A DNA stretch of 64,000 nucleotides, taken from an uncultured Prevotellaceae bacterium (GTDB taxonomy: Bacteria; Bacteroidota; Bacteroidia; Bacteroidales; Bacteroidaceae). The translations under genes were made by a program, and so were the position numbers. The stretch covers positions 62,001-126,000 of the forward strand of contig CAMKEM010000002.1 in assembly GCA_946411565.1 (NCBI GenBank), in the 5' to 3' direction. The first letter of the stretch is position 1. Each line of letters starts with the position of its first letter. Below the pieces are notes generated by a model, which worked only from the letters and a program-made list of their open reading frames with translations, was not told the origin of the DNA and did no database searches. Of this stretch, positions 16,055-18,138 are shown in pieces.

Positions 16055-16085
16055 TTTGTGTTAAGAAAGAAAATACCTATATTTG
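16055..16085 (+). promoter_or_regulatory. Bacteroidetes-type promoter
   Basis: TTTG (16055-16058), 19 bp spacer, TATATTTG (16078-16085). Confidence 0.75.
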
Positions 16086-16089
16086 CAAA

Positions 16090-16471
16090 GTCGTAACTAT
16101 TGCAAGTGGTTAGACTCTACATAATGAAAAAGCGTCATCGATGCTTTGTCTATTGGTCATTTGAAACCTGAGAAATTTCAAAATAAGAAATCAATGACAA
16201 TGTCAGAAGTGGCTGCTACGGGTATGGTATAACTATATCTCGGGGTGTGTAGTGAGGGTTATTCATCCTCATGCACACTTTCCCCCGAAGATATGTGCAA
16301 CTATATCAGCGTGGGCAGACTTTCTACTCGTCAATTTCTTAGGGTATTCTCAGGACCTCAAATGACGGACGAGCAGAAATGGATACCCACGTTTTTCGTT
16401 ATGTGGTAAACCATAATAACTAAACCAATAAACGCCTTAATAGGGTATCAGAAAGGCAATAATGGGCTATT
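16090..16471 (+). ncRNA. candidate structured leader RNA (or degenerate small gene)
   Basis: Hairpin 16235-16294 (ATATCT..CGGGG..GTGAGG / CCTCAT..CCCCG..AGATAT); second long stem CGTGGG..TTTCTACTCGTC (16310-16332) / GACGAGCAGAAA..CCCACG (16368-16391). Confidence 0.5.
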
Positions 16472-16849
16472 ATGAGCATCGTTATTATTATCATCTGCGT
16501 TGTTGTTCTTATTTATTTGTTCAACTATCGCTCAAAGATTGACCGAGAAGAAAAGGTCGCATTGCAAACTCCAGGTACAGCAGATAAACTGCGAGATAAC
16601 TTTTCCGGATTGATAAGTATGCTGTTAGTTAATCCCTCCCATACCATTCTTATGGAAAGGAAATATGACGAATCCATACGTATTGGCAATAATAGCGGTC
16701 AAGAATTGTTTATTAGTTTTTCCGCATTGGGTGGACCACTAATAAATGTGGCATGCATTGACCACTCTCAAATACTCAAAGAATGGAAATTTGAGAGAAA
16801 ACTCAGTGACGATCAAATATTCAACGAGATAAATTACTTTTTCAAATAA
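16472..16849 (+). CDS. hypothetical membrane-anchored protein (125 aa)
   Basis: N-terminal TM segment then soluble domain; operonic spacing with the next ORF. Confidence 0.65.
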   Translation: MSIVIIIICVVVLIYLFNYRSKIDREEKVALQTPGTADKLRDNFSGLISMLLVNPSHTILMERKYDESIRIGNNSGQELFISFSALGGPLINVACIDHSQILKEWKFERKLSDDQIFNEINYFFK

Positions 16850-16854
16850 TAGCT

Positions 16855-17262
16855 ATGGGATCATTTTGGATTTTTGTCATAATCATTGTTGCTGTCATCC
16901 TTTATAGCTTTGCCAGAGACTCTTACAAGGAAAACGACCAAATTGTCAAGGAGGGCGGAATAAGGAAGAAATACAAGACTCTTATTGATAACTTCATTGA
17001 CCCAAATTCAGGAATGATTGTTACCAAGGAAACCAACACATATTGCTGTATAGCAATGCAAAATCATACAGGTCATGTTGCTTTCCACTTTCAACATACA
17101 TTTAATAAAATCAATATCACATTCGACATGAAGAATATTTTCCTTGGCGAGCATAATTTAAATTGGACTTTTCCGGAAACCATGCCGCAGGAGGATATGA
17201 TATACCAGATAGAGACTCGCACGAGACAGTATATTGACAATGTGACAAACAAATACCAATAA
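16855..17262 (+). CDS. hypothetical membrane-anchored protein (135 aa), probable paralog of the upstream ORF
   Basis: Same TM + soluble layout; 5-bp gaps to both neighbours. Confidence 0.65.
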   Translation: MGSFWIFVIIIVAVILYSFARDSYKENDQIVKEGGIRKKYKTLIDNFIDPNSGMIVTKETNTYCCIAMQNHTGHVAFHFQHTFNKINITFDMKNIFLGEHNLNWTFPETMPQEDMIYQIETRTRQYIDNVTNKYQ

Positions 17263-17267
17263 ACATT

Positions 17268-17663
17268 ATGGGATTCTTTTCTAATTTATTCGGACAAGCA
17301 AAAGAATTGACGAAATTAGGCAATGCTGTTGCTAACGTAAAAAAAATGTTGGATGCATATGAGGCAGATAATGACCCTTCCTATCTTATTGTGTCTTCGT
17401 GGATTTGCAAAGTAGGCGTGATAGATATGATAGTGAAGAATGGCTGGCAACCCAATTACGTCGTGTATGTGCCTATCAATGGCCATCATACAAAAATGTC
17501 AATAGGCGAGACACAATTGATGACTATTAATCGTTTGATGAAGAAGGTTTCCAATTATGGTGATGCAGACTTAGAAGAAAAGATAAATGACGTTCTTAAA
17601 GGTGGGCCTGCTTTTTATGAAGTCGATTCAAAGCTTCCTCAACGAATAAAGGATATGATTTAG
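17268..17663 (+). CDS. hypothetical protein (131 aa)
   Basis: ORF in operonic arrangement. Confidence 0.65.
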   Translation: MGFFSNLFGQAKELTKLGNAVANVKKMLDAYEADNDPSYLIVSSWICKVGVIDMIVKNGWQPNYVVYVPINGHHTKMSIGETQLMTINRLMKKVSNYGDADLEEKINDVLKGGPAFYEVDSKLPQRIKDMI

Positions 17664-17767: not shown

Positions 17768-17968
17768 CCCAATAGCGCCCCAAAGGGGCAATGAGCCAAT
17801 AGCCCATGGCGATGCCATGGGGAAAATAGAGCCATAGCCTACGCCCTGCAAGGGCAAAAGCCTTAAATTGGAACAATGCTTATGCCCCTTCAGGGCGAAT
17901 GAATCCCATTGGACATAATACCACAGGGCGATGCCCTGAGCTATGTGCTTTTGGGCTTTCAGCCCGCC
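17768..17968. repeat. composite hairpin repeat, copy 2 (inverted relative to copy 1)
   Basis: CCCAATAGCGCCCCAAAGGGGCAATG...CACAGGGCGATGCCCTGAGCTATGTGCTTTTGGGCTTTCAGCCCGCC. Confidence 0.85.
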
Positions 17969-18138
17969 TATCGGGCATATGCGGATTCATATAGCAAAAT
18001 AAAAATTCACGAAGACACAAAGACGCAGAGGATAATAATCTCCGCGTCTTTGTTTCTTTGCGTTAGAAACAAAAAAGATCTTCGGATGATAGGTAGAACT
18101 TGGAGATCATACATAAAATCGTCTTTTTCGAACAAAAA

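Follow-up and report, generated by a model that had tools for sequence, protein, structure and literature searches.

A conserved structured leader RNA with two alternative folds, upstream of unrelated defence and surface genes in Prevotella and relatives: a candidate transcription attenuator

In the 64,000-nt stretch of uncultured Prevotellaceae DNA analysed here (the window; GCA_946411565.1, contig CAMKEM010000002.1), a heavily folded segment behind a strong promoter motif raises the question of whether it specifies a regulatory RNA or the remains of a decayed or recoded gene, and, if an RNA, how it acts on the genes behind it. Direct reading of the sequence confirmed the Bacteroidales-type promoter of the original prediction, TTTG-N19-TATATTTG (16055..16085; TTTG at 16055-16058 and TATATTTG at 16078-16085; this and all window features below are on the + strand), from which transcription is expected to start near 16089-16095. 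The two long stems that had been noticed are also present, as P3/P4 (16239-16287) and P6 (16310-16332/16368-16391), and both co-vary in an alignment of 108 copies. The frame that had suggested a gene reads as described, MTMSEVAATGMV followed by TAA at 16230-16232 and then 58 open codons up to TAA at 16407-16409. The segment folds at -123.8 kcal/mol (z = -6.0), and none of 100 shuffled versions was equally stable. The 600 bases 5' of the promoter hold three long imperfect inverted repeats with arms of 48, 39 and 28 nt (15431-15478/15611-15658, 15677-15715/15844-15882 and 15750-15777/15782-15809), possibly intergenic repeat elements.

The original prediction was to fall if Bacteroidales genomes held no homologues, and homologues were found: by DNA search, the element occurs at five places on different contigs of its own genome (a later model adds a weak sixth) and in 9 of 60 relatives; identity is 71-77% for the four other places in the window's own genome and 70-76% for homologues within and between genomes. 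It is thus multi-copy and dispersed, which had not been foreseen. Searches with R1, a covariance model built from nine copies including that of the window, detected 1-6 copies per genome in 117 of the 249 same-genus genomes searched; across Bacteroidales as a whole, 12 of 295 genomes carried the family. A second covariance model, applied with strict filters to 295 genomes drawn over the class, returned no copy outside Bacteroidales. Among the 80 records listed from a DNA-pattern scan of named genomes, all belonged to Bacteroidales or its parent groups, mainly rumen Prevotella, and the carriers listed include the isolate P. communis E15-14; Prevotella sp. khp7, tc2-28 and ne3005 are further cultured carriers. 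In total, 112 copies were collected, 108 of which entered the alignment. The whole window had no match in Rfam 15 at gathering thresholds, and for the 15.9-16.6 kb segment, searched up to E = 5, the only hit was a chance match to an enterovirus element (E = 4.9). No description of such a leader was found in the open-access papers searched; PMC8040213 lists candidate RNAs of the human microbiome in the thousands, and the family may be among them without a name. The leader, ~380 nt long, is apparently an undescribed RNA family of Prevotella and relatives.

A patchy, dispersed distribution with several copies per genome would also suit the RNA of a mobile or guide system (an intron, an omega/HEARO-type guide or a MITE) rather than a regulator. 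Against this stand the lack of an Rfam match and the neighbourhoods of the copies, which share no nuclease, transposase or reverse transcriptase; clustering and family assignment of neighbours revealed no adjacent IscB/TnpB-type nuclease. The phage and plasmid DNA collections searched yielded no copy, and viral contigs gave one partial match for one pattern and none for another, so that we regard a mobile or guide RNA as very improbable. The sole viral-contig match (L031:13942-13984) comprises model positions 1-44, abuts the end of an IMG/VR contig and is perhaps a provirus edge adjoining a copy.

Comparison of the 108 homologues also bore on the choice between RNA and gene, since pairing was kept among them and the reading frame was not. 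The length of the open tail modulo 3 was random (36, 39 and 33 copies), and its frame was open in 17 of the 108, fewer than for either of the other two frames (30 and 25); the coding tail was rejected on these counts. The 58 open codons after the TAA of the window copy are what speaks for a decayed or recoded protein gene, whereas neither frame nor length is conserved, and the probability of such a gene is close to nil.

The conserved unit extends from the promoter-proximal end at 16088 to the last hairpin at 16457, as delimited by the alignment, covariation and the fold (z = -6). It is closed by P0, whose 5' strand (16116..16124) pairs with 16399-16407, just after the U-tract (~76% of alignment cells paired; 7 of 9 pairs changed on both sides). 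Within P0 lie the P1 hairpin AAAGCGTC/GATGCTTT (16129..16147; 90% of cells paired, with some compensatory changes) and P2 (16147..16200), in which 16147-16157 pair with 16190-16200 and which contains a co-varying local hairpin (16160-16166/16176-16182). The loop of P2 holds most of the 5' strand (16156..16191) of a long-range helix, ABC, that had escaped the original prediction and is the strongest of all; its 3' strand (16334..16366) occupies the entire apical loop of P6. Helices A, B and C pair 16156-16164 with 16358-16366, 16167-16174 with 16347-16354, and 16185-16191 with 16334-16340, respectively. Between the two strands, the P3/P4 hairpin (16239..16287; GTGTGY..GAGGG../..CCTC..GCACAC) is paired in 98.5% of cells in the P4 stem and 93.6% at its tip, with both-side changes at every P4 pair. 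The terminator-like stem P6 (16310..16333 with 16367..16391) is paired in 85.7% of cells in its lower and 91.3% in its upper part, has both-side changes at 15 of 20 pairs, and is followed by an intrinsic-terminator-like U-tract (16392..16396). At least four consecutive T follow P6 in 100 of 108 copies, the tract being interrupted in some; the distant copy L025 ends in GCCCACGCTTTTTTT in this region. The unit further reaches, beyond what had been proposed, to the P7 hairpin (16434..16457), directly before the start codon and ~15 nt upstream of ATG 16472, whose loop (16443-16449) pairs with 16382-16388 in the 3' strand of P6, a segment also complementary to the 5' strand of P6. These kissing pairs are 86-97% paired, and for each of them some copies have both partners changed. 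The stem of P7 aligns poorly and has weak alignment support, with pairing in 40% of cells; together with P3 and the 5' domain preceding P0, it is among the less well defined parts of the model. A rumen subfamily carries an extra branched 5' domain, CTGCCY..GGC..GATGTC..GAC..GGAGCC..RGGCGGAG, between promoter and P0, within the 120 nt 5' of P1 (L165:7612-7732 on the - strand, and similar copies), which the window copy does not obviously share.

An unbiased pairwise covariation scan of the 108 copies ranked helices B, C and A at the top, followed by P4, P6, the pairing of the P6 3' strand with the P7 loop (16382-16388/16443-16449), and then P0. The structure combining ABC with P0 and the contact to P7 was paired in 82.6% of cells, compared with 70.0% in shuffles, with 943 doubly changed cells versus 354 and both-side changes at 55 of 61 pairs; one with P2, the local hairpin and P6 was paired in 84.0% versus 78.9%, with 416 doubly changed cells versus 148. 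Neither level was reached by any of 500 shuffles, and slid versions, which preserve the relatedness of the copies as the shuffles do not, fell to 33-52% paired. In an alignment-free swap test, runs of at least 7 occurred for the strands of A and B in 104 of 108 copies paired with themselves and in 48 after swapping, and for the P7 loop in 84 of 108 versus 47. Taken together, these results strongly support the structured regulatory RNA of the original prediction.

The two structures appear to be alternatives. Position 16162 co-varies both with 16180 in the local hairpin (0.91 paired) and with 16360 in helix A (0.99 paired), and 16384 both with 16317 in P6 (0.91 paired) and with 16447 in the P7 loop (0.96 paired); since a base has one partner at a time, this double covariation points to a switch. 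The geometry leads the same way, because a complete ABC (~24 bp), with its 3' strand in the P6 loop and its 5' strand in the P2 loop, should exclude a complete P6 and P2. The leader thus combines, as read from its shared strands and double covariation, what would be mutually exclusive structures, one of them terminator-like, as in an attenuation leader. Minimum-energy folds up to the U-tract contained ABC in 57 and P6 in 31 of the 108 copies, with energies near balance. For a growing transcript of the window copy, folded without pseudoknots, the local hairpin had a probability of 0.78 at 16340 and helix A of 1.00 at 16366. P6 of the window copy has mismatches (316/385 and 326/374, in the last three digits of the coordinates) and ABC is the preferred fold there, which might leave this copy ON most of the time.

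The position of the leader fits control in cis: it lies on the sense strand between a promoter and a start codon. In 100 of 112 copies, TAnnTTTG was present 20-110 nt before the model start (scan of 90 nt upstream of each), compared with 1 of 109 and 3 of 107 controls and 6.7 expected from shuffling. A gene on the same strand came next in 104 of 112 copies, several of the exceptions being cut by contig ends, and in 74 of these 104 it started 120-215 nt past the model end. The motif was absent between P6 and ATG in all 74 copies with a gene directly following (3.5 expected), which suggests that the gene depends on reading through P6. A free-standing, trans-acting non-coding RNA ending at the U-tract, with the gene expressed through leakage, would match the ~300 nt transcript delimited by the promoter and the terminator-like end; however, the conserved unit continues past the U-tract to the start codon (P0 3' strand, P7), no second promoter motif precedes the gene, and the position before a gene is nearly constant, making such an RNA distinctly unlikely. 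Much the same can be said of a switch at the level of translation, in which P7 and its kissing partner would gate the start codon and the U-tract would merely be part of P0. The phylum makes little use of Shine-Dalgarno pairing. P7 lies ~15-30 nt upstream of ATG and its loop co-varies with 16382-16388, and in the window fold A-rich bases near P1, on its 5' side, offer the U-tract another pairing partner, so that conservation of the tract need not mean termination; against this, T-runs are kept in 100 of 108 copies, and unmistakable intrinsic terminators end the tandem leaders described below.

From the structure and position observed, we infer, with a probability of about 0.6 on sequence evidence, that the ~380 nt leader is cis-acting, has its own promoter and sets transcription of the downstream gene or operon by attenuation, through a switch between ABC and P6. 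As the RNA emerges, the 5' strand (16156-16191) would first fold locally into P2 and the inner hairpin. Were it to stay locked there, P6 and the U-tract would form and RNA polymerase would stop; were it free when 16334-16366 emerges, ABC would form, fill the P6 loop and block P6, allowing read-through. In the read-through transcript, P0 would close around the U-tract and the 3' strand of P6 could pair with the P7 loop by the start codon, a contact that may serve to lock the ON state or to adjust translation. This order of folding and the assignment of ABC to the ON state are proposals, and the choice might be biased by a metabolite, a protein or stalled translation.

The genes behind the leader are unrelated. 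Counted per family, with class overlap checked for part of the proteins, about 40% of the 104 first genes belong to restriction-modification or defence. C5-cytosine DNA methylases account for 18, other methylases for 12 (6 Dam-type and 6 N6/N4), Eco57I-type enzymes for 6 (one fused to a C5 domain), TdeIII restriction enzymes for 4 and ResIII-type helicase domains for 5, 3 of which resemble phospholipase-D/DISARM anti-phage helicases; UpxY antiterminators account for 5 and MBOAT acyltransferases for 3, and many others are lipoproteins, surface proteins or unknowns. About 50 C5-methylases occur in 20 genomes, 14 of them directly behind a leader copy; assuming ~2,500 genes per genome, 18 of 104 exceeds, by this estimate, the share expected of a random gene by well over a hundredfold. 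A link to one downstream gene family was ruled out, the genes differing between copies. The TdeIII-type endonuclease genes (L123, L130, L163 and L180) each stand behind a leader in different genomes, one from another Bacteroidales family. In the window, the downstream operon comprises three small genes (16472-16849, 16855-17262 and 17268-17663) with no match in Pfam or PADLOC, two of them with an N-terminal membrane segment, and is a candidate defence or surface operon; the own-genome copy L018 is also ahead of two small membrane proteins. Short G+C-rich palindromic repeats (GCCCTGAAGGGGC-like; 17775-17985) lie between this operon and a BspA-type LRR gene.

This diversity argues against a metabolite riboswitch: methylases, restriction enzymes, helicases, UpxY, MBOAT proteins, lipoproteins and unknowns share no metabolite or pathway, which would be unusual for that class, and no known aptamer family matched in Rfam. 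Another reading is a processive antitermination element in the manner of put RNA, EAR or the UpxY leaders, in which the RNA, alone or with a NusG paralogue, would modify polymerase to pass the terminators and Rho sites of long operons of foreign origin. The leader is indeed common to unrelated long accessory operons; UpxY-family genes come first behind five copies and second behind one own-genome copy, and UpxY is reported to keep transcription of capsule operons from ending early in their untranslated region (PMC7315117). Nevertheless, 99 of 104 copies lack a UpxY first gene, many downstream units are a single short gene, the alternative pairings resemble a local switch, and EAR and JUMPstart of Rfam did not match; antitermination of this kind is unlikely, if less so than the other rivals considered.

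Copies ahead of C5-methylases carry ~200 nt extra, of two types by similarity (alpha, 8 copies; beta, 10 copies). This second conserved structured RNA, seen at L168:900-1124, L184:2333-2576 and other copies, follows the first in tandem and includes a perfect intrinsic terminator; most second leaders end in stems such as CCCCTGCG-N12-CGCAGGGG-CTTTTT immediately upstream of ATG. Rfam gave no match to this RNA in the four loci scanned. Given such a terminator at the end of the second leader, the arrangement as a whole is read most naturally as attenuation. A SAM-I/IV riboswitch match (L155:7251-7396, - strand), ~5 kb from one leader and C5-methylase locus, is probably unrelated.

For the restraint that bacteria place on restriction-modification and other costly defence genes, most of the controls described are protein regulators. 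A large conserved RNA before many unrelated defence and surface genes would allow such control to be tested through one cis element, and what triggers it could be a general alarm. That one RNA switch family, spread by horizontal transfer, serves as the standard controller of phage-facing genes in Bacteroidales (restriction-modification, other defence, capsule, surface), off by default and opened by antitermination on a common cue (phage takeover; a transcription or translation stall), is a speculative extension with the odds against it, albeit a possible one. The family also adds a complex RNA, in which two helices have strands in common and a contact reaches the start codon, to a phylum from which few regulatory RNAs have been described.

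Among known systems, EAR (epsC, RF01735), JUMPstart (RF01707) and put RNA are likewise leaders of accessory operons acting on elongation, whereas the leader described here has its own terminator-like stem; they are also several times shorter, and the Rfam gathering threshold was exceeded by neither EAR nor JUMPstart. Type III toxin-antitoxin loci (ToxIN) consist of a promoter, a pseudoknotted RNA, a terminator and then a protein gene, an order also seen here, but tandem repeats and a common toxin were not seen and the downstream genes are diverse. Bacteroid-trp, Bacteroidales-1 and Bacteroides-1 (RF01692-RF01694; PMC2864571) are structured RNAs of the same order or phylum, none of which matched the window segment even at E up to 5. 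The capsule leaders of Bacteroides are reported to be UpxY-dependent (PMC7315117, citing Chatzidaki-Livanis 2009): these too are Bacteroidales leaders with premature termination, which in our case is predicted, and UpxY genes follow five copies here. Among the first genes behind 104 copies, however, upxY accounts for these five, with one further case as a second gene, and most copies stand ahead of genes for restriction-modification, defence, lipoproteins or proteins without a known family. Transcription-attenuating riboswitches and leader attenuators share the 5' leader upstream of a start codon, the terminator-like stem with its U-tract and an exclusive long-range helix. The present leader differs from them in having no known ligand, single pathway or Rfam match, and in its construction, with a switch helix that fills the whole terminator loop and an additional contact with the hairpin at the start codon.
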